The position numbers and the translations under genes were made by a program. The notes under the pieces are model-generated. The model was not told the origin of the DNA and made no database searches. It worked only from the letters and a program-made list of their open reading frames with translations. This document shows positions 19,818-38,530 of a stretch of DNA of 64,000 nucleotides, in pieces. This DNA is from Triplophysa rosa (Eukaryota > Chordata > Actinopteri > Cypriniformes > Nemacheilidae), in NCBI RefSeq assembly GCF_024868665.1, contig NC_079913.1:2483051-2547050 (forward strand), given 5' to 3'. The first letter of the stretch is position 1. Every line of letters starts with the position of its first letter.

Positions 19818-22800
19818 TTAAAAGTCCTGAATAACATACTGTATCTTCCAGTGCTGGCCGCTGCATTCACCAATAAAGAGTTCATACTCTCCATTCTGAT
19901 CAACACTGACCTCCAGACAGCGTTTGGTGTCTCTGTTCTGTATAGCCTGTCCCTGAAAAAATCAGGCGTTATAACCATGGCATTTTTGCTCATAAGTAAA
20001 ACTTTCAAGGTGTCATGATTTGTTTACCTGTTTGAAGTCCCAATATATGTGCTCTTTAAGCTTTTTAGTGCCTGAGCACAACTTCAATGCCGGGACTCTC
20101 CCTGAGCCCGGATCTATGAGACAACGTGTGTGTGTCTGTGTATGAGACTCAAGGGGACCAATAAATATCTCACCACTAGTTGTATATTTAAACACCTGTG
20201 TATGGAGAAACTAAAGTTCATTCAATATTTTTCAATAATACAATCAAGTTGAGAAATATGAAATATAAAAACTGTATTACTTGTGAATATGAGTAATGAC
20301 ATGGATATAAAATGGGAGTGTTTCCATCAAGCGGCCCCTGATCCAAACATAAACTTGTTTGCAGATCATTTTGCACCTGTCCGTGAGAGATAATAAGTCA
20401 GTTTTAGTAAACTGCATTAAATTGCGGTACATTTGATCTCATGTCACTCACCACTCCATAACCAAGTATATCATCTATGAGCTTTAACTGAGGATAGACA
20501 TTTTCCAGATACCATTTAAATGGTTTGCACTTCAGCCTCTCTCTCAATTTCCTTCGCTCGGATACATCTCCAATGTCTATCCCATGGTCCTGTTAGAAAC
20601 AGAGATAGGCTATGGTTCATTTGCATCTGTATTAACAAGTTGTGATTAATTTCAGGGGTCTCAAGAACAACACAGTAACGTTTTGGCAGGCAGGAGAACA
20701 AGGAGTGGATCCAAAAGCAGTATCTAGTGATTTTAATGATAATCCACAGGGCAACATGAGGTCCAAGAGTAACATAAAATCCAGAAAACATGAGCAGGTA
20801 TACAAACGAAACAAGGCACAACATAAAACAAAGATCGACAAAAGACAACTGAACACAAGGGTTATAAATAGCAACAGGGTGTAACAAACAAGGTTGGGTA
20901 AAATACATTTCTTAAGTATTATACAGTACAAGCATGATCCAGTTAATAAAAACAAGGAAATTAAATGAAAGTCATCCTTATGTTTTCTCGCTTTCTGCAT
21001 AAATAAAGATACTCTACGATTCATACCTCTATGGGAAGATTCCAGGCAACGTTTACGTTAGTCTTGTATTCATCCATCCACACTTCTGCCACTCTGAGGG
21101 CATTTCTCTTCATTGTAATGCTAAGGTCAAGCATGTAGGGTTTGTGTGCCCTTTCAATGTGGGCGACTTTAGAGCACGGCACAATCTCTATACTTCCTCC
21201 ACAAAGCCACACCTGTGCCAAACCACACGACAAGTCAAAACAATGACAATGATAATGATAAATAGATTAGACCTACATTAATATTAAGTACAAATGGAAA
21301 TCTACAGACAGCATCTTTAGCATGCTATCAATTATTGCATAAAATAATGTCATATGACCCCCTCACACAATCTCTCATTTAAAACCGCATCATATTTGTA
21401 TAAGTGTTTTACAGTGTAATGTAAGTCGTAGTTTACCCGAATTCCCAATTCAACATTCTCGCCTCCATACACCCGCATCCCTGCATCTAGAGTTCCAATC
21501 TCACCAAAGAACAGACGATCAGCAGCCAGAATGCCCATTACAGATGGACTCCTGGACATCAGAACGCAGTTTTTTATATAGTTACACGCTCAATACAGTA
21601 CAGTGGACGTGAATATTACAACAAATACGCACACTCACTTTCCTGGCCGTGAAGGGTCATTCTGATCATACCACTTCTGTGGGAACGTTTCATACGCGCA
21701 CCAGAGAGCCCAGTCGAAGCCATGAGCGTTTGCAGGATAATTCGTTATTTGCAAATCATCGAAATTCACTTTGTCAAACACGGGGCTCAGGACCACCGTG
21801 CGGTCGGCCTGGATACGAGCAAGCAAAGGCTCTGCCCTATGTAGAAACCAAGCACATTTCATCCACCGCATATTCTTTATGTTTCATATACTGTACATCT
21901 ATGAACCCACAGGGGTGTTTCTATAAAAAACAACAACAATATCTAAAAGGTTGGAGCATAAAGCAAGGTCCACACCATTTGACATGGACTTCAATGTGGG
22001 CATCCAAAATGGCAACTACATCCGCGGAGGCAGCCTTCCATCCTGAGATTCTCGCCTGCGTGAGACCTCTCTGCTCTGAATGTATCACCAGTTTCAACAA
22101 GTTTGGATGCTTCTGGTTAATAGATCTCACAAAATCATTCAGCTGTGTCTTCAGATCTTCTGTAGAGGAAATGAATTACTCAAAATCTTCTTGCTTGAAT
22201 CCTTTTATTACAGGCTACCACTGAAAGAAGCTTTCACAAATACAACTAACAAGCACGCAAATCTAAAACTTTGAAGAGCAATTCCCATCATCATCATCAT
22301 GCAGATTTAAAACAAGTGTGAAGCGTAAAGGCTTGTCTGTTTTGATTTGAAGTGAAACAAACCATTTTGGCTGTGGTCATCCACCAGTATGATCTCTTTC
22401 AGCAGGTGGGCTGGAGTTCTGTTGATGATGCTACAAACAGCTCTTTGAATGACAGACAGAGCCTCATCCAGATAAATCAGAATCACACCGATGGTGGGCA
22501 GATTCTGGGGATATTCACGTTCAACGCATCTACAAAGCAAAGGAAAACACATTTCTATCATTTCCACAAGACGGATATTGAGCTTTATGATACTCATCGA
22601 TTAAACACACCTGTGATCTCGAGTCTCCGGCAGCTCTCTGTCCAGAGGGATCTGATCACTGAGAAAGGCGTTATAGCCATATTTCTGAAAAAGATCTTCA
22701 GCCTTCCTCTGATCTTCTTCAGAAAGTTCCACAGTCCATCGCTGGAACAGACGCGAGTTTGGAAACAGCTTCTTCACCGGTTGCTTCTCTGTTTTCACAT

Positions 22801-23105
22801 TACGGTTTTTCTCTTCTGTAAATATTTTCAATCAAAATATAATAAGTAATTAGTAATTATCAGTAACATGTTTCGCTTTGAGCAAATTCCACGTACATTA
22901 GTAACTCACCCATGGCGTGCACCTGAGCCTCCAGTTTCTCCAGTTTGTTGAGAAGAAGATCATTGTGTAAGGAGAGGTTCTGCTGGGCTTGATAAAGCTG
23001 CTTCTCTTGGGTTTGGAGGTTTCGTTTGACAGAGCTCACATAGAGAAACACTGCAGAGACAGCCAGAGCTGGAAACAAACTCCTCAAACAGCTTATTCTC
23101 ATCAT
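19818..23105 (-). CDS. galnt8: Polypeptide N-acetylgalactosaminyltransferase 8-like, copy A
   Basis: A Golgi type II membrane enzyme of the family that starts mucin-type O-glycosylation by moving GalNAc from UDP-GalNAc to Ser/Thr. Eleven exons: 23105-22910, 22815-22611, 22529-22363, 22159-21976, 21836-21639, 21551-21437, 21212-21027, 20589-20452, 20376-20281, 20195-20028 and 19952-19818; 595 residues. A short cytosolic tail and membrane anchor (residues about 8-24) precede a coiled stem ending EAQVHAMG. The catalytic domain has the metal-binding DxH (D242-A-H244), [10 protein letters not shown], His373 in [11 protein letters not shown] and AEVWMDEYK. The ricin-like lectin domain (about 463-595) has CLDQGP, CLIDPG and GQHW. 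The match is closest to human GALNT8, for which activity is poorly documented. No break is seen. The stop codon lies only 221 bp from the convergent ada2 stop. Confidence 0.93.
20008..22812. repeat. Recent segmental duplication, left copy
   Basis: Covers galnt8 A exons 2-10 with introns. It is almost identical to 34922-37742: the offset is 14,930 bp over most of its length and 14,914 bp at the left end. The exception is a patch near 20354-20435 that differs in both sequence and length. Both copies share an intron insertion (about 20686-20885) that copy B lacks. Confidence 0.9.
20686..20885. mobile_element. Intron insertion shared by galnt8 A and C
   Basis: About 200 bp of A-rich sequence in the intron between exons 7 and 8. 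It is also present at about 35616-35815 in copy C, but copy B has a short intron here. It looks like an interspersed repeat. I cannot name the family, and the boundaries are approximate. Confidence 0.5.
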
Positions 23106-25047: not shown

Positions 25048-28000
25048 TCAGACTCCTTTCTGATTGGCTCTAATCTCCAGACAGCGATTGGTGTCTTTGT
25101 TCTGTATGGCCTGTCCCTGAAAAAGACCACAGAAAAGTTTTTTAATCGATTGTTCCGAATGAAGGCAACATCCCGGCCATTTTTGACATAGTGTATGTAG
25201 AACTTTTAAGGTCTCGTTACCTGTTTAAAGTACCAATGTATGTGCTTTTCAAGGTTTTTGCCGTCTGAGCACAATGCCAGTTCTGGAACTGTCCCTGAGC
25301 CCGGATCCTTCAGACAGCGGTTCCGTTTGCGTGTATGAGACTCAAGGATACCAATAAATATTTCACCACCAGCTGTATATTTGAACACCTGCGTAAGGTG
25401 AAAGTTGCCTTAATATTCTTCAAAAATAAAGCATCAGAGAGAAAAAGCAACAACACCAGAACAGATGATAAGTGAAATAAAAAGCATTACCTGTGACCAA
25501 AAGAAATGGCATGGATACAAAATGGGAGTGTTTCCTTCAAGCGGCCCCTGATCCAAACATAAACTTGGGTGCAGATCATTTTGCAGCTGTCCGTGAGAGA
25601 TTCTAAGTCAGTTATATTAAATTGTATAACCTTATTTATATTTTGCTGTACATTAGATGTCACTCACCACTCCAAAACCAAGTATATGAAACCTAAGATC
25701 TAACTGAGGATAGACATTTTCCAGATACCATTTAAATGGTTTACACTTCAGCCTCTCTCTCAATTTCTTTCGCTCGGATACATCTCCAATGTCTATCCCA
25801 TGGTCCTGTTAGAAACAGAGATATGGATCACTTGCATCTGTTTAAACCACAGCTATTATAGTTATACTTTTTGGTTAGTTTTAGGGGTCTCAATAACAAC
25901 ATGAAGGTGGGCACTGATTTTTCTGTTATGTACTATATAAGAATGATGCAATGAATGAAAAAAAAGTTTTCTGCATAAATTAACATACTCTATTATGTGT
26001 ATTATGTCCTATTTGTACCTTTACGGCAACATTCCAGGCAATGTTTACGTTAGTCTTGTATTCATCCATCCACACTTCTGCTACTCTGAGGGCATTTCTC
26101 TTCATTGTAATGCTAAGGTCAAGCATGTAGGGTTTGTGTGCCCTTTCAATGTGGGCAATTTTTGAGCACGGCACAATCTCTATACTTCCTCCACAAAGCC
26201 ACACCTGTGCCAAACCACACAACAAGTCAAAACAGAGGCCACTAAAATAAAATTAAATGTTGTTAAAAGTTCAAGTGATAGGTTTTTTTTACAAAAATAA
26301 TGTTTACTGCAGCATCTGTAACCTGCTATCAATAACCACAAATCTGATACAAATTAACTTCATATTTTCAAACAATGTTATCTCGCAGTTAAATATGCAT
26401 AACACCTTTATATTCTTAAGTGTTTTATAGTGTAATGAAAGTCTGTACGCTCAGTTGCACGTAGTTTACCCGTATTCCCAATTCAACATTCTCTCCTCCG
26501 TAAACCCGCATCCCTCCATCCAGAGTTCCAATCTCACCAAAGAACAGACGATCAGCCACCAGAATGCCCATTACAGACGGACTCCTGGACATCAGACAGA
26601 CCAGAAAATGGTTCTGAATACACTCAATACAATACTGGAATATATTGATTAATCTATTGATTTGATCAGATTAAACAAATACACACACTCACTTTCCTGG
26701 CTGTGAAGGGTCGTTCGGAACATACCACTCATGTGGGAACGCTACATACATGCACCAGAGAGCCCAGTCGAAGCCATGAGCGCTAGGATTATATTTTATT
26801 ACTTTCAAGTCATAGAAATTCACTTTGTCAAACACGGGGCTCAGGATCACCGTGCGGTCGGCCTTGATACGAGCAAGTAAAGGCTCCGCCCTATAAGAAG
26901 ACAAGGGTGTATGAACATGTTTACTGTATGATCAGGAAGGAGAAGCATGGGGGGAAATAAATTAAATAATAATGAGCAGTTCCACACCATTTGACATGGA
27001 CTTCAATGTGGGCATCCAAAATAGCCACTACATCCGCGGTGGCAGCCTTCCATCCTGAGATTCTCGCCTGCGTGAGACCTCTCTGCTCTGAATGTGTCAC
27101 CAGTTTCACCAGGTCTGTATGATTCTGGTTAATGGATCTCACATAGGCATGAAGCTGTGTCTTTAGATCTTCTGTATGGACATGCATCCGAGATTAAATA
27201 CTCAAAACCTCCATCTGACTTTGGTGTATTATAACTGGTCAGCATGACCGAATGTGATGTCTGGAGCATATTTGTACAATATTTGCGTTTCTGTCGGGAC
27301 CACTGTCATCAATTATTTAACGATAGCATATATTTAGTTTGGCGGAATGAAACTGTTCTGCGCAAACTCTCTGCCCGTCCATGCAGCCTTGCATGGACAT
27401 AGCAGGAGCGCAGCAATACCAGAACAGATCCTGATGCGTAACAGGATTCAATTAAAAGATCTGAAGATACAGGCAGATAAGGGGGAGATGGGGATGGCGG
27501 TGGGTTTTAGGTGCAACACGATTAAGCAGCTGATAAGGAGCAAAGAAATGCAACTTAAATAGGACGCAGTCTAGTGTGTGTTGTATGACTATTGGTTAAC
27601 GTTGATTAGCGGCACCTGATGTGATCAGCTGATGCAAGCTGAACTCACGTGACCTGCCGCAACTAATGCTACGCTTGATTTAATGTCCCCACTGGTAAGA
27701 TTAAAACGTGGAAAACTTGGTCAAGGTTTTTATTTATTTATATAATCAGCAAGTGTAGCAGGGGGACTTGGTGGGTCTGTTTGGTTTTATGTGAAACAAA
27801 CCATTTTGGCTGTGGTCATCCACCAGTATGATCTCTTTCAGCAGGTGGGCTGGAGTTCTGTTGATGATGCTACAAACAGCTCTTTGAATGACAGACAGAG
27901 CCTCATCCAGATAAATCAGAATCACACCGATGGTGGGCAGATTCTGGGGATATTCACGTTCAACGCATCTAGAAAGTGACAAAAGCAATGCAAAATTGAA

Positions 28001-31000
28001 AATACATGACAGGTAAGTTTTAAGCACTCATATACCCGATTAAACACACCTGTGATCTCGAGTCTCCGGCAGCTCTCTGTCCAGAGGGATCTGATCACTG
28101 AGAAAGGCGTTATAGCCATATTTCTGAAAAAGATCTTCAGCCTTCCTCTGATCTTCTTCAGAAAGTTCCACAGTCCATCGCTGGAAAAGAGGTGAGTTTG
28201 GAAACAGCTTCTTCGCTGGTTGCTTCTCGGTTTTGACCTTGGGGTTTTTCTCTCCTGCAAATTAATTTGTGGTCAAAATCAGTGATGTAAATTATTCAAA
28301 TATATCACTTCATTCATAATGTTCAAAGTTGTTCACTAAGTAATAGTGGTTACTACATTAGTTATTCACCCATGGCGTGTACCGGAGCCTCCGTTTTTTC
28401 CACTGGTTGCTTCTCTGTTTTCTCTTTAGGGTTTCTCTCTCCTGCAAAAATTGTCATTTGTGGTCAAAATCAGTGGTATAGCAAGTCAGCCCTGGGGCCA
28501 TATGTAAACATTTTATTTTATTGGGTCAGGGCAGGGCAGGGCAGGGTCCCCTCTCCGTCCGTTTGCGATTGCGTTTTTCATGGTTTCCCCTCCATCTGTT
28601 CACGATCGCATTCTTCGCCATCCCCTCTGTCTGCCCGCGATCAGCCTCAATATACTTTAGATGCGGACCCCCAATCCCCCCGGGCCCATATGCACCTGCC
28701 TACCTAGACGCTACGCCAGTGGTCGAAATCATTAAAAAGGATGAAAGATTTTTAAAATTCTAGTAGCTAACATATTTCACATCATCCATAAACCAACTGG
28801 TTTAAATCAACCTATAAAAAGTCCTTACTTACCCAACTATGGATTAAAATTCAAAGCAGAATTTGACTGTTTGGACAGTATGTCACATAAAAAGATCCAA
28901 ATTTCTGCACTAAACAATAGTGGTTATTACATTAGTTACCCATGGCGTGTACCGGAGCCTCTGTTTTTTTCACTGGTTGCTTCTCTGTTTTCACTTCAGG
29001 GTTTTTCTCTCCTGCAAAGATTTTGATTTAACTGGTCAAGATCAATAAAATTCTAGTAACTAACACATTTCACATCATCCGTACACCAACTGGTTTAAAG
29101 CAATCTATAAAAAGGAGTTATTTAACCAACCATCAGTGTTGGGAGTAATGCTTTACAAAAGTAATGCATTACAGTAACATATTACTTTTTGCTGTAACGC
29201 AGTAGTGTAATGCATTTCTAATCAATTTTCAGTAATACTTTACTCGGTACATGTTCAGAAATGCTTGCGTTACAACAAACTTTTCGCCCGCGAGACATTA
29301 ACAAATCAAAGATCCCGCAAGTAAGTTCTATTTCCTGTTCGTGAATAGACGCGTGTGGTGTCATTCATCTCCCTCTGGCTGGTGGAACTATTTTGTAACG
29401 GCATGATTTCAGTCTCTGAGCTAAAGGTCCGAGGCTATAAAAGTGTGGGGAACGAGTTTCTGACAGCAGGCTACAGTACAGGGAGCGACGCGGGAGCTCA
29501 GCTCAACCAAAGAGGAAAATATAGCGGTGGTAATAGACAATGCATCCGAGTTATGCTTTTACCAATGTTTTGTAAGGTGCATGTCACGTTTCACAATGAA
29601 AGAAATCACGCGTGAGTGTTCAACAGTTGATTCTACCGGCTGCTAAATATCACGTTTGAGCAGCTGTATACGCAGTCTAGAACAACTAAAACATTGACGT
29701 GCTTGTACACATTATACATATGCAATAAATTTAACCAAGCTTATTTCTTAAGCAAGTTTTTGCATGTCTTACGAAGAGAAAACACGTTTCTCTTCCATTT
29801 CCGTGCGTGGCCTCGAGCACACATGGATCTTTTTTAAAGGGACACTCCACCCAAAAATTCTGTTATGGATTACTCACCCTAGTTGTTCCAAACCTGTATA
29901 CATTTCTTTGTTCGGTTGAACATAAAGACATTTGGTAGAACGTTAGCAACTGAAAATTATTTGGCATCATTGACTACCATAGCAGAAAAAAATATAACTA
30001 GTCAAAGGTGACCCAGAATTGTTTGCTTTCCTAAATGCCCCAAAACATATTTTGAGTTCATCAGAACAAAAAATATATACAATATCTAGGAAACCATTCA
30101 GATAAGTAAATATAGCAATAGAAACGTCTTTTGGCAGTTGTTAACTTTGATTTGACACCGGAAAATAATTGGTCTAGTTTTCATTCCCTTTGGGCGGGTT
30201 TTGAGGGGTCATTGGGCTGCTTTCAGGAAGCTATTAGCAAGATCCCTGTGACCAGCAGCAATGACAAGGTAAGCTAACGTTTACATGATGACTAGCTAGA
30301 ATTCTATATAATCTAGTTCAGTGATGAGATGGGACAATTTTGTATTTAAATACCTTTGAAAAAAAGAATTGTATTTTGTATTTAAATGTGTTTAATCTTA
30401 GTATTTTTATATTTTCAAACTGCAATACTTTTTGCCAATCAACCTCCTTATTAGACTGCATGGATGGACAGTGTATTCAAATACATCCATTTGAAATACA
30501 AAATACTATTATTTTGTAATAGTATTTTGAATTTAAATTCATTTACTCTAGTATTTTTTTGTATTTATTTTTGTATAGCCTAGTTAATTCAAGAAATCAG
30601 CAGTCTAAAGAGGTTGATTGGCAAAATACAAAGACTTATTTTAGAATGTTAAGTTCTACTTAGGGTTGTTCCGATAGACGATACTATCGTGTATCGACGA
30701 TCCTCAGACCTATCGGCGATAGCTGATTCCCTAGACGATAGTTGGCTGTTTGCCAATATATGTTGCAAATCAATATTACAAACGCGCATTGCGCATTTCT
30801 TCATGCAAGAGAGCTTGCAATGCACGCGGCTTAGGCTTTTCCTCGCACCAGAGAGAGTTTATAATGTGCGGGCTTTGAGTTTTCAGAGCACGAGAGAGCT
30901 TGTGATGCGCGCGGCTCGGGCTTTTCCTCGCTCCAGAGAGAGTTTATAATGTGCGGGCTTTGAGTTTTCAGAGCACGAGAGAGCTTGTGATGCGCGCGGC

Positions 31001-33177
31001 TCGGGCTTTTCCTCGCTCCAGAGAGAGTTTATAATGTGCGGGCTTTGAGTTTTCAGAGCACGAGAGAGCTTGTGATGCGCGCGGCTCGGGCTTTTCCTCG
31101 CTCCAGAGAGAGTTTATAATGTGCGGGCTTTGAGTTTTCAGAGCACGAGAGAGCTTGTGATGCGCGCGGCTCGGGCTCAGGAATTGCTATGCGCGTGAGG
31201 GTTTAAAACCAGCGCACGAGTTGTTCCCGTTTGGCAATCAAGTAATAACAGCGCACGCGGGCATCAATGACGCATTTGGATGAATGATATTGACTCATAG
31301 CAATAGTTTACTTTCTCTTGTTTAAAAGGTTGCGCTGGTAAGTAACAATGTTGCCAGCTGCACTGAACTTAAACTCTGATAGAATGCTAATTGCAGTCAC
31401 ACATGAGCATTTTCTAGACACATAAGCTACTGTTTTTGTCCACAAATCCAGCTTGTCATAGATAAATGCGTAATTGCCCCGCCCCTCGATACTATCGTGT
31501 ATCGGCGATCCACAGGCTGGCGATCGAACGATCTGATTATATTGAATATCGCCCAACACTAGTTCTACTTCTATAGTGATTTTGGTGAAAGTAACTCAAA
31601 AGTAAAATAGGAGTCATGTAACGTATTACAATTCTGAGACAGTAATATTGTAAGGTAAGGGATTACTTTTAAATAACAGTAACAAGTAATCTGTAATGTA
31701 TTACAGTTTGGAAGTAACTTGCACAACACTGCCAACCATGGGTTTAAATTCAAAGCAGAACTTGACTGTTTGGAGAGTATGTCACATAAAAATGTCCAAA
31801 TTTCTTCACTAAACATTGGAGGTTTGTTACTGACCCATGGTGTGTACCGGAGTCTCCAGTTTTTCCACTGGTTGCTTCTCTGTTTTCATTTTAAGGTTTT
31901 TCTCTCCTGCAAAGATTTTCACTTGTGGTCAGAATCTTTAAAATTAATGAAAGATTAGTAACTATATGTCACATCATCAATAAGCCAAATCAATTTATAA
32001 AAAGTTGACCTATATGAATTTAAATTCAAAGCAGAATTTGACTGTTTGGAGCGTATATCACATAAAAATGTCCACATTTCTTTACTAAACAATAGTGGTT
32101 AGTACATTACTCACCCATTGTGTGTACAGGAGCCTTCGGTTTTCCCACTGGTTGCTTCTCTGTTTTCACTTTAGGGGTTTTCTCTACTGCAAAGATTTTC
32201 ACTTGTTGTCAAAATCATTCAAATTGATGCAAGATTAACATAATTCCTGTAACCAACATATTTCACATCATTCAACCTCAACTGCTAATTTGAATCAATC
32301 TATAAAAAGTCCTTACTTACCCAATCATGGATTGTAAATAAAATCAGAATTTGACTGTTTGAAAAGTACAGTATATCCCATGATAAAAGTGTCCAAATTT
32401 CTTCACTAAGAAATAATGGTTGGTAATTAACTCACCCATGGCGTGTACTGGAGTCTCTGGTTTTTCCATTGGCTGCTTCTCTTTTTTCACTTTAAGGGTT
32501 CTCTCTCCTGCAAAGAGTTTCACTGGTCAAAATCGTAATCAACATCATCAACATTCTATCAACTAACATATGTCTCATCATAACTGCTGGTTTAAATCAG
32601 TCTTTAAAATGTCCATATTTGACCCAACCATAGGTTGAAACAACCCAGCATTTTTAGAATGCACATAACAGTAAAATCTAAAACAATAAATCAACAGCTT
32701 TAGGTATTTTCTATTTACAATGACACAGACATGAATCAAAACGATTTATTATGTCTTGAAAATACAGATTGATATTCTATTGTCAACTTTTGCTACAACT
32801 CATAATAATATATTGGGGAATCATTTTTCAATGACATTTTAATTGTACTTTCAAATTACACAATTCAGACTTTTAAGCAAATAACGTGAATTAAAAGCAG
32901 AATTTGTGGAGAGTACTTCATTTATTTATAATAAATGAATGTCAAAAACATTTGACGAAACATTAATGAGTAGTTACTCACCCATGGCGTGTAACTGAGC
33001 CTCCAGTTTGTTAAGATTTTTGAGAAGAAGATCATTGTGTAAGGAGAGGTTCTGCTGGGCTTGATAAAGCTGCTTCTCTTGGGTTTGGATTTTCTGTTTG
33101 ACAGAGCTCACATAGAGAAACACTGCAATGACAGCCAGTGTTGGAAACAAACTCCTCAAACGGCTTATTCTCATCAT
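25048..33177 (-). CDS. galnt8: galnt8-like, copy B, with expanded stem and truncated lectin domain
   Basis: Same enzyme family as copies A and C. Exons: 33177-32982 (anchor and stem), then five 72-bp stem exons (32507-32436, 32186-32115, 31906-31835, 29011-28940, 28441-28370). The remaining exons are 28254-28050, 27968-27802, 27171-26988, 26890-26693, 26584-26470, 26204-26019, 25805-25668, 25586-25491, 25388-25221 and 25116-25048. The model encodes 693 residues, of which 120 come from the extra exons. Catalytic motifs are kept ([26 protein letters not shown]). In the last exon the frame hits TGA at 25050-25048, about 20 codons early. The homologous tail with GECSGQHW continues in the same frame after it. 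The loss removes the last lectin repeat's Cys and QxW. It may be a working variant or an early pseudogene. Confidence 0.8.
27190..27780. other. Insertion-rich intron of galnt8 B
   Basis: The intron between exons 3 and 4 of copy B (numbered as in A) is much longer than in A and C. It holds a G/C-richer block (about 27300-27700) absent from the other copies, probably a mobile-element remnant. I recognise no coding domain or ends. Confidence 0.4.
28471..28721. mobile_element. hAT-type miniature element
   Basis: Starts CAGTGGTATAGC and ends with the complement of CACTGGCGTAGC. The flanks GTCAAAAT (28463-28470) and GTCGAAAT (28722-28729) match at 7 of 8 bases, as expected of an aged 8-bp hAT target duplication. 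It sits in the intron between the fourth and fifth stem exons of galnt8 B. Confidence 0.7.
29835..30060. repeat. Dispersed cyprinid-type repeat
   Basis: Contains the GGGACACTCCACCCAAAAATTCTG-type start and TTACTCACCCT core, common in cyprinid genomes from my knowledge. It is related to the palindromic copy at 55408-55665 and nested in the larger hAT element. Confidence 0.55.
30661..31561. mobile_element. Nested non-autonomous hAT element with internal minisatellite
   Basis: Flanked by an exact 8-bp duplication GTTCTACT (30653-30660 and 31562-31569). It begins TAGGGTTGTTCCGATA, and its other end reads TAGTGTTGGGCGATA inward. Subterminal CGATACTATCGTGTATCG blocks occur in both halves. No transposase is visible. 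It carries the 85-bp tandem repeat at 30805-31176. Confidence 0.85.
30805..31176. repeat. 85-bp minisatellite, about 4.4 copies
   Basis: Phase markers (CTCGGG) recur at 30915, 31000, 31085 and 31170, giving a period of 85 bp. The first copy is the most diverged. It is GC-rich with many CG dinucleotides and lies wholly inside the nested hAT element. Confidence 0.9.
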
Positions 33178-34684: not shown

Positions 34685-37600
34685 TTAAAAGTCCTGAACA
34701 ATATACTGTATCCTCCAGTGCTGGCCGCTGCATTCACCAATAAAGAGTTCATACTCTCCATTCTGATCAACACTGACCTCCAGACAGCGTTTGGTGTCTC
34801 TGTTCTGTATGGCCTGTCCCTGAAAAAGACAGAGAAAGACCAGAAGTACTTGAATAAGAATGCATTCTTTAGGTTGGATGCAGCATGGGATGGACATATT
34901 TTGACTTATGTAAAACATTTTAAGGTGTCATGATTTGTTTACCTGTTTGAAGTCCCAATATATGTGCTCTTTAAGCTTTTTAGTGCCTGAGCACAACTTC
35001 AATGCCGGGACTCTCCCTGAGCCCGGATCTATGAGACAACGTGTGTGTGTCTGTGTATGAGACTCAAGGGGACCAATAAATATCTCACCACTAGTTGTAT
35101 ATTTAAACACCTGTGTATGGAGAAACTAAAGTTCATTCAATATTTTTCAATAATACAATCAAGTTGAGAAATATGAAATATAAAAACTGTATTACTTGTG
35201 AATATGAGTAATGACATGGATATAAAATGGGAGTGTTTCCATCAAGCGGCCCCTGATCCAAACATAAACTTGTTTTCAGATCATTGTGCAGCTGTCCGTG
35301 AAAGATTATACGTCAGTTATGTTAAATTATACTATGCATTATTTTTATATTTTTCTGTACATTTGATCTCATGTCACTCACCACTCCATAACCAAGTATA
35401 TCATCTATGAGCTTTAACTGAGGATAGACATTTTCCAGATACCATTTAAATGGTTTGCACTTCAGCCTCTCTCTCAATTTCCTTCGCTCGGATACATCTC
35501 CAATGTCTATCCCATGGTCCTGTTAGAAACAGAGATAGGCTATGGTTCATTTGCATCTGTATTAACAAGTTGTGATTAATTTCAGGGGTCTCAAGAACAA
35601 CACAGTAACGTTTTGGCAGGCAGGAGAACAAGGAGTGGATCCAAAAGCAGTATCTAGTGATTTTAATGATAATCCACAGGGCAACATGAGGTCCAAGAGT
35701 AACATAAAATCCAGAAAACATGAGCAGGTATACAAACGAAACAAGGCACAACATAAAACAAAGATCGACAAAAGACAACTGAACACAAGGGTTATAAATA
35801 GCAACAGGGTGTAACAAACAAGGTTGGGTAAAATACATTTCTTAAGTATTATACAGTACAAGCATGATCCAGTTAATAAAAACAAGGAAATTAAATGAAA
35901 GTCATCCTTATGTTTTCTCGCTTTCTGCATAAATAAAGATACTCTACGATTCATACCTCTATGGGAAGATTCCAGGCAACGTTTACGTTAGTCTTGTATT
36001 CATCCATCCACACTTCTGCCACTCTGAGGGCATTTCTCTTCATTGTAATGCTAAGGTCAAGCATGTAGGGTTTGTGTGCCCTTTCAATGTGGGCGACTTT
36101 AGAGCACGGCACAATCTCTATACTTCCTCCACAAAGCCACACCTGTGCCAAACCACACGACAAGTCAAAACAATGACAATGATAATGATAAATAGATTAG
36201 ACCTACATTAATATTAAGTACAAATGGAAATCTACAGACAGCATCTTTAGCATGCTATCAATTATTGCATAAAATAATGTCATATGACCCCCTCACACAA
36301 TCTCTCATTTAAAACCGCATCATATTTGTATAAGTGTTTTACAGTGTAATGTAAGTCGTAGTTTACCCGAATTCCCAATTCAACATTCTCGCCTCCATAC
36401 ACCCGCATCCCTGCATCTAGAGTTCCAATCTCACCAAAGAACAGACGATCAGCAGCCAGAATGCCCATTACAGATGGACTCCTGGACATCAGAACGCAGT
36501 TTTTTATATAGTTACACGCTCAATACAGTACAGTGGACGTGAATATTACAACAAATACGCACACTCACTTTCCTGGCCGTGAAGGGTCATTCTGATCATA
36601 CCACTTCTGTGGGAACGTTTCATACGCGCACCAGAGAGCCCAGTCGAAGCCATGAGCGTTTGCAGGATAATTCGTTATTTGCAAATCATCGAAATTCACT
36701 TTGTCAAACACGGGGCTCAGGACCACCGTGCGGTCGGCCTGGATACGAGCAAGCAAAGGCTCTGCCCTATGTAGAAACCAAGCACATTTCATCCACCGCA
36801 TATTCTTTATGTTTCATATACTGTACATCTATGAACCCACAGGGGTGTTTCTATAAAAAACAACAACAATATCTAAAAGGTTGGAGCATAAAGCAAGGTC
36901 CACACCATTTGACATGGACTTCAATGTGGGCATCCAAAATGGCAACTACATCCGCGGAGGCAGCCTTCCATCCTGAGATTCTCGCCTGCGTGAGACCTCT
37001 CTGCTCTGAATGTATCACCAGTTTCAACAAGTTTGGATGCTTCTGGTTAATAGATCTCACAAAATCATTCAGCTGTGTCTTCAGATCTTCTGTAGAGGAA
37101 ATGAATTACTCAAAATCTTCTTGCTTGAATCCTTTTATTACAGGCTACCACTGAAAGAAGCTTTCACAAATACAACTAACAAGCACGCAAATCTAAAACT
37201 TTGAAGAGCAATTCCCATCATCATCATCATGCAGATTTAAAACAAGTGTGAAGCGTAAAGGCTTGTCTGTTTTGATTTGAAGTGAAACAAACCATTTTGG
37301 CTGTGGTCATCCACCAGTATGATCTCTTTCAGCAGGTGGGCTGGAGTTCTGTTGATGATGCTACAAACAGCTCTTTGAATGACAGACAGAGCCTCATCCA
37401 GATAAATCAGAATCACACCGATGGTGGGCAGATTCTGGGGATATTCACGTTCAACGCATCTACAAAGCAAAGGAAAACACATTTCTATCATTTCCACAAC
37501 ACAGATATTGAGCTTTATGATGCTCATCGATTAAACACACCTGTGGTCTCGAGTCTCCGGCAGCTCTCTGTCCAGAGGGATCTGATCACTGAGAAAGGCG

Positions 37601-38530
37601 TTATAGCCATATTTCTGAAAAAGATCTTCAGCCTTCCTCTGATCTTCTTCAGAAAGTTCCACAGTCCATCGCTGGAACAGACGCGAGTTTGGAAACAGCT
37701 TCTTCACCGGTTGCTTCTCTGTTTTCACATTACGGTTTCTCTCTTCTGTAATTACGATTTTTTTTTTTATTAAAATGGTGATAGATTTACATAATAATAG
37801 TAACCAACATGTTACTCATAACTGTTTAAGTCAACAGCTTAGTTTGTGTAGGTCTTCCTTCAATAGCCTACAGCAGTGGCCAAAAGTGGAAAATCATTTT
37901 TTTCTTTTTTAAAACATTATTATTAAACATTTTTTAAGATGTATTAAAAATGTTGTATGTGTGTTGTGTAGTTGTGCTTGCAGAAGAATCTAAGAATTTT
38001 TGGCAAAAAAATGCACAAAGAGTAAATGTCTGTGGAGAATGGCAACAAAATATTAAATGAGGACCAACAAAATATTAATAACTTCAATGTAATCAATTTT
38101 GACCATATTCTTCATATTTTGATGGCTTAATCTAACCCGAAGGGGCATTAAAAGCTAGCATTAAAGGTACAATATACCCTCTTGTTCACCACTACTTAAT
38201 AGTCTTTTAAGTCCATCTTATCTTGTTACTTGAAAATAAGATCAATATACTGTTGTGCAGAATCTGACTGTTTGGAAAGTATGCGACACTTTAAACGAAT
38301 TCCAAATTTCACCAAACATACATTAGTTACTCACCTATGTTGTGTATCTGAGCCTCCAGTTTCTCCAGTTTGTTGAGAAGAAGATCATTGTGTAACGAGA
38401 GGTTCTGCTGGGCTTGATAAAGCTGCTTCTCTTGGGTTTGGAGGTTTCGTTTGACAGAGCTCACATAGAGAAACACTGCAGAGACAGCCAGAGCTGGAAA
38501 CAAACTCCTCAAACAGCTTATTCTCATCAT
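34685..38530 (-). CDS. galnt8: Polypeptide N-acetylgalactosaminyltransferase 8-like, copy C
   Basis: A complete 595-residue paralogue of copy A with the same eleven-exon structure: 38530-38335, 37745-37541, 37459-37293, 37089-36906, 36766-36569, 36481-36367, 36142-35957, 35519-35382, 35291-35196, 35110-34943 and 34819-34685. Catalytic motifs [22 protein letters not shown] and the three-part lectin domain are intact. Exons 3-8 look identical to copy A. Differences lie in exon 1 (the stem ends EAQIHNIG instead of EAQVHAMG), at the start of exon 9 (LHNDLK versus VQNDLQ) and in the last exon ([11 protein letters not shown] versus [11 protein letters not shown]). The first intron is unrelated in length to that of A. 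The pattern suggests that the middle of the gene was recently copied or converted. Confidence 0.93.
34922..37742. repeat. Recent segmental duplication, right copy
   Basis: Partner of 20008-22812. The diverged patch is about 35275-35365; there the sequence is closer to copy B in places (GCAGCTGTCCGTGA, GTTAAATTATAC). Outside it I noticed only scattered single-base differences, mostly near 37490-37550. Confidence 0.9.

Follow-up and report, generated by a model that had tools for sequence, protein, structure and literature searches.

The PEVK repeats of titin, named for their Pro, Glu, Val, and Lys residues, are about 28 residues long, with one repeat encoded per exon. Many of the PEVK exons are partly included, according to the accessible part of a published account (PMC6300359), and the PEVK segment is described as an entropic spring in the available portion of a second source (PMC7274174). 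Exon choice also alters an enzyme among the polypeptide N-acetylgalactosamine (GalNAc)-transferases, as the accessible text on Drosophila pgant9 indicates (PMC6115407). Vertebrate GALNT8 belongs to this same family by sequence and domains, and the available part of a further source describes human GalNAc-T8 as possibly non-functional in vitro (PMC8472655). The stretch of DNA analyzed here (the window; 64,000 nucleotides of Triplophysa rosa, contig NC_079913.1, positions 2,483,051 to 2,547,050) holds three neighbouring galnt8 copies, A, B, and C, all on the minus strand, and copy B carries five additional short exons, referred to as units, between its exons 1 and 2. At a probability of roughly 0.5, the best explanation of the whole is an array made by duplication of an exon junction, some units of which would be spliced in to serve as a length-based spacer.

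The structure of the array is certain with respect to its anatomy, frame, and splice signals, the parentage of both halves of its units, and its restriction, among the three copies, to copy B. On the minus strand, units 1 to 5 occupy 32436..32507, 32115..32186, 31835..31906, 28940..29011, and 28370..28441, and are followed by the donors gtgagt, gtgagt, gtcagt, gtaact, and gtgaat, respectively. As an initial annotation had proposed, all five are exactly 72 nt long, open, preceded by AG and followed by GT, and all enter and leave at phase 1, so that any number of them can be skipped in frame. Exon 1 (32982..33177, minus strand, 196 nt) encodes a hydrophobic anchor, recognized by inspection, and the start of the stem, and matches the T. 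rosa protein record P0001; the first ~41 nt of exon 2 (28050..28254, minus strand) have their counterpart in the 5' portion of each unit. The copy B model comprises 16 exons, the five units included, with an open frame of 693 residues, which falls to 573 when all five units are omitted. The array is inserted after residue 65, between the anchor and the catalytic domain, the GalNAc-T1 match of which begins at residue 92 of P0001, and the sequence bears out the initial annotation of a skippable, in-frame array in the stem portion of a gene for a GalNAc-transferase.

Pairing of the unit donors with U1 (−9.9, −9.9, −5.7, −6.2, and −6.6 kcal/mol for units 1 to 5) falls inside the spread seen at the remaining copy A and copy B donors (−1.6 to −9.9 kcal/mol), and the unit acceptors resemble the acceptor of exon 2, with short pyrimidine tracts and a pyrimidine content of 0.44–0.56, versus 0.50 in exon 2. 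Pro, Glu, Val, and Lys make up 60% of the unit residues, and the net charge is +8. The core VKTEKQPV, attributed in the initial annotation to every unit, is exact in two of the five, and the shorter KTEKQPV is found in four. Copies A and C have no units, as stated there, but the same VKTEKQPV stands at the head of their exon 2. No sixth unit was found when both strands of the window were scanned by pattern, or in a self-comparison of the exon 1–exon 2 stretch. Unit 5 with its flanks (156 bases) was the sole query in a comparison with the genome (684.8 Mb, 1038 contigs), in a search that scores the best candidates, here seven; of the nine matches, five were the units themselves, three were exon 2 of the respective copies, and one was exon 1 of copy A, and no units elsewhere were among the matches listed for this query, beyond half-matches to galnt8 exons 1 and 2.

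Each unit is a hybrid in which ~41 nt of the exon 2 head are fused to ~31 nt of the exon 1 tail. Over its first 41 nt, the unit consensus agrees with copy B exon 2 at 36 positions, and over its last 31 nt with exon 1 at 26; outside the overlap the other parent exon matches at merely 0–2 per 6 bases. Both within copy B and in comparison with copy C, the sequence 3' of the units resembles the start of intron 1, and the sequence 5' of them resembles its end: the unit 3 tail and its downstream intron match the copy C exon 1 tail and intron 1 start at 76% over 118 nt, and the upstream intron and head of unit 2 match the copy C intron 1 end and exon 2 head at 71% over 126 nt. The inter-unit introns and the hybrid exons therefore place the origin of the array in a tandem duplication of a segment composed of the exon 1 tail, intron 1, and the exon 2 head, and the neighbouring homologous exons, equal symmetric phase, and homologous introns by which tandem exon duplication is recognized are all present.

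In the first step, a tandem duplication that started within exon 1 and ended within exon 2 would have fused the exon 2 head to the exon 1 tail, in frame and with ready-made splice sites inherited from the parent exons, and the array would later have grown by the copying of whole modules, each an exon with its intron. The joining of an exon 2 GTG codon to an exon 1 GAG codon would preserve the frame, as random ends would in one-third of cases. Unit 3 is, by eye, the nearest to the original fusion. The Gln of exon 1 (EAQ) is replaced by Pro in all five units, and this change probably preceded their multiplication. Exon 2 begins with G in copy B, as do four of the five units, versus A in copies A and C, and the E66G change that matches this base is unique to copy B among eight aligned proteins; because these features are shared with copy B, the array most likely arose in the B lineage.

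Under the junction-duplication reading, at least some units would be spliced into copy B mRNA, lengthening the Golgi stem by 24 to 120 flexible residues rich in Pro, Glu, Val, and Lys. The longer stem would act as a spacer in which length counts and sequence does not, and with as many as 120 flexible residues inserted, the catalytic domain may extend to a greater distance from the membrane. The array itself is best read as a putative lineage-specific, PEVK-like spacer in the Golgi stem. The exons of units 1–4 differ by no indels, whereas their introns differ by 3–6 indels per pair, and divergence over the six pairs ranges from 0.137 to 0.207 in the exons and from 0.187 to 0.297 in the introns; this comparison covers units 1–4 (unit 5 has a short intron), with a transposon-like element removed from the unit 3 intron. 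In a neutral simulation at intron rates (20,000 runs), in which "intact" denotes no stop, no splice loss, and no indel, any indel being counted as a break, all five units remained intact in 0.0005 of the runs, and in 0.0154 at half depth. This pattern fits an array that may be held for its length and frame rather than for its residues, or one under weak or past constraint. A neutral relic free of any constraint, though conceivable, would rarely keep all five units intact, to judge from this simulation.

A number of observations weigh against the use of the units. U1 pairing is weaker for the donors of units 3–5 than for those of units 1–2, and a TGA in the last exon of copy B removes the final Cys and the last QxW motif of the lectin domain. 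Variable columns amount to 19 of 72 in the unit exons and 71 of 182 in the introns, a difference that is not significant alone (p = 0.06), and when indels are ignored the same simulation leaves five units intact in 0.0156 of the runs, or 0.113 at half depth. A check of the dN/dS type (the ratio of nonsynonymous to synonymous substitution rates), which the initial annotation had recommended for the units, disclosed no amino-acid constraint: the ratio of nonsynonymous to synonymous differences (pN/pS) is 0.96 over 10 pairs, and the variable columns fall at codon positions 1, 2, and 3 in the numbers 8, 7, and 4, so the unit residues appear unconstrained. P0001, the public model of copy B, joins exon 1 directly to exon 2; this partial record equals the copy B protein minus the initial MM and minus the units, and may be a prediction only. 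Finally, no unit-bearing protein was found in three protein searches, which covered lengths of ~381–1212 and 91–289 residues in a collection that, judging by the source label lgn, probably contains translations of read assemblies. The first of them, at the greater lengths, scored only the 7996 candidates sharing most words, and among the best 120 of its 1620 matches none has more than one copy of the KxE(K/R/Q)(Q/H)P core. The second, in the same length range, scored 1505 candidates and returned none at an E-value of 0.001; even P0001 failed there, so a single-unit protein could be missed. The search at 91–289 residues gave one match with no unit inside, P0121 (95 residues, from a 2059-base contig), which appears to read from an intron with a similar end into a copy-B-like exon 2, and which represents a relative or another allele, because several of its residues differ from the window.

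The exon 1–exon 2 junction in P0001, the outcome of the three protein searches, and the pN/pS close to 1 all favour the rival that survives best, in which the units are inert pseudo-exons in an intron: the spliceosome would join exon 1 to exon 2, and the splice-like sites would merely have been carried along by duplication. We regard this explanation as a serious contender, though somewhat improbable. It has to accommodate five units without an indel, a stop, or a lost splice dinucleotide beside introns that, for units 1–4, differ by several indels per pair, an outcome reached neutrally in 0.0005–0.0154 of the simulated runs, and the exon 1 donor meets the unit acceptors, with their exon 2-like pyrimidine content, before it meets that of exon 2.

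The TGA also makes decay a live rival, because this stop truncates the lectin domain; copy B would then be a decaying duplicate that no longer makes a working enzyme, whether or not the array was once used. The last exon (25048..25116, minus strand) ends at this TGA, 20 codons ahead of the stop position that matches copies A and C, and ~20 residues retained in those copies are lost. A complete C-terminal ricin-type lectin domain (PF00652) was not recovered in copy B, where the match ends at profile position 107 of 126, versus 125 of 126 in copy C. Of the 120 homologues listed (the best 120 of 1620), 112 have a QxW motif in their final 45 residues, and the eight that have none there include P0001. 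Unique changes at columns otherwise invariant among eight proteins number 16 in copy B and 9 in T. tibetana; the count of 0 in copy C does not serve as a fair comparison, since the set includes copy A, which is nearly identical to it. However, the remainder of the 693-residue frame and the splice sites are intact, the LDAH motif is retained, and the dN/dS of copy B versus copy C is 0.63 for the stem, 0.45, and hence below 1, for the catalytic portion, and 0.60 for the lectin portion (0.50, 0.46, and 0.54, respectively, versus copy A). These ratios indicate that constraint on copy B is relaxed, not gone, and decay is judged unlikely. An assembly error, of which tandem repeats are a known source, or else a mixture of alleles, is highly improbable, as the units differ at 7–18% of their exon bases and by 0.19–0.30 in their introns, a transposon-like element with its own target duplication lies between units 3 and 4, and the five units sit on one contig with no second locus among the matches listed.

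The junction-duplication reading can be extended to function. In its fullest form, copy B would be a Golgi GalNAc-transferase with a modular PEVK-like stem in which splicing sets 0–5 units, a lineage-specific, adjustable tether that grew out of the junction duplication, a change that guidance by the lectin domain may have been lost along with; this proposal is quite doubtful. A non-catalytic role is also possible, because the human enzyme is described, in the part of the source cited above, as possibly non-functional in vitro.

The descent of copy B from a polypeptide GalNAc-transferase (GT27) of the GALNT8 type is, as judged by sequence, not in doubt, but the intactness of the enzyme is. Copy B is 99% identical to a T. 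rosa GALNT8 record, and PF00535 (Glycosyltransferase family 2 type) is matched at its residues 269–394 (E-value 6.6e-19; 68.9 bits, with a cut-off of 23.3). Its metal-binding DxH motif, LDAH, is aligned with the LDAH of the solved GalNAc-T1, and the alignment of the catalytic part runs through this motif. Copies A (19818..23105) and C (34685..38530), both on the minus strand, each have 11 exons, 595 residues, and no units, their low ends being counted from the 595-residue frame; record P0003, also from T. rosa, is identical to the copy C protein, letter for letter. Copies A (19977-22821) and C (34890-37751) are 98.7% identical over 2863 bp, introns included, and this likeness, between copies that flank the more diverged copy B, indicates a recent duplication or conversion. 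The identity of copy B to copies A and C is 90–95% around exons 2–3 (27775-28264) and exon 7 (26016-26234), and 79–83% elsewhere; this mosaic points to gene conversion or unequal constraint.

The introns of units 1–4 have diverged by 0.19–0.30 substitutions per site, and copies B and C are 79–83% identical over stretches covering exons and introns (90–95% over others), so the array and copy B may be similar in age. Trees of units 1–4 built from introns and from exons have short inner branches and differ in shape, and the units therefore appear to have arisen close together in time and then drifted apart. The transposon-like insertion in the intron between units 3 and 4 (29134..31731, no strand assigned, 2598 bp) has an 8-bp target duplication, CCAACCAT, ends in CAGTGTTG...CAACACTG, and has relatives elsewhere in the genome; we take it to be hAT-like, and it evidently entered this intron later than the array was formed. 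It is apparently broken near 30661-31561 by a second repeated segment, which holds an 85-bp tandem repeat in 4.4 copies (30808-31177). Compared with the genome, the whole array stretch gave at least 164 matches, a count that includes the stretch itself; almost all of them fall inside the transposon-like element. The intron between units 4 and 5 contains a GC-rich insertion at 28475-28719 (ends approximate), which by alignment is not in the introns of units 1–3.

If the units are used, they would provide a natural series of stem lengths in one Golgi enzyme, and the assumed spacer role of the stem would become testable by unit counts across tissues and species. The initial annotation had named related cyprinids as the group for comparison; T. 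rosa is a loach (Nemacheilidae), not a cyprinid. That annotation was right about the skippable stem array, but it missed the hybrid origin of the units, the stop that truncates the lectin domain, the public model without units, and the lack of residue constraint. Even if unused, the units are a clean record of how a duplication with its ends in two adjacent exons creates a frame-safe exon that has ready splice sites and is able to multiply. No such exon array is named in the literature covered, from which subscription papers mostly fall outside, on galnt8, GalNAc-transferase stems, the T. rosa genome, tandem or hybrid exons, PEVK, and glycosyltransferase exon duplication.

Among known systems, the titin PEVK array comes close in form. 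The galnt8 units are 24 residues long, versus about 28 in the titin repeats, and have the Pro, Glu, Val, and Lys content given above; no homology to titin was found, a Pfam scan of copy B at E-values up to 0.001 giving PF00535 and PF00652 only. Titin likewise has a run of exons that encodes a segment rich in these four residues, the length of which depends on the exons included, as described in the accessible part of the account (PMC6300359). However, titin is a muscle spring with dozens of PEVK exons and measured inclusion, whereas copy B has five, in the gene of a Golgi enzyme, and is known from genomic sequence. Drosophila pgant9 encodes a polypeptide GalNAc-transferase; according to the available text, two versions of a lectin-domain exon are swapped there, altering a charged loop near the active site (PMC6115407), whereas the galnt8 units are additive and lie in the stem. 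Ordinary tandem exon duplication likewise yields adjacent, homologous, symmetric exons with homologous introns; unlike it, the segment duplicated in copy B is not one whole exon, and because its ends fell inside two neighbouring exons, a new hybrid exon was created at the join.

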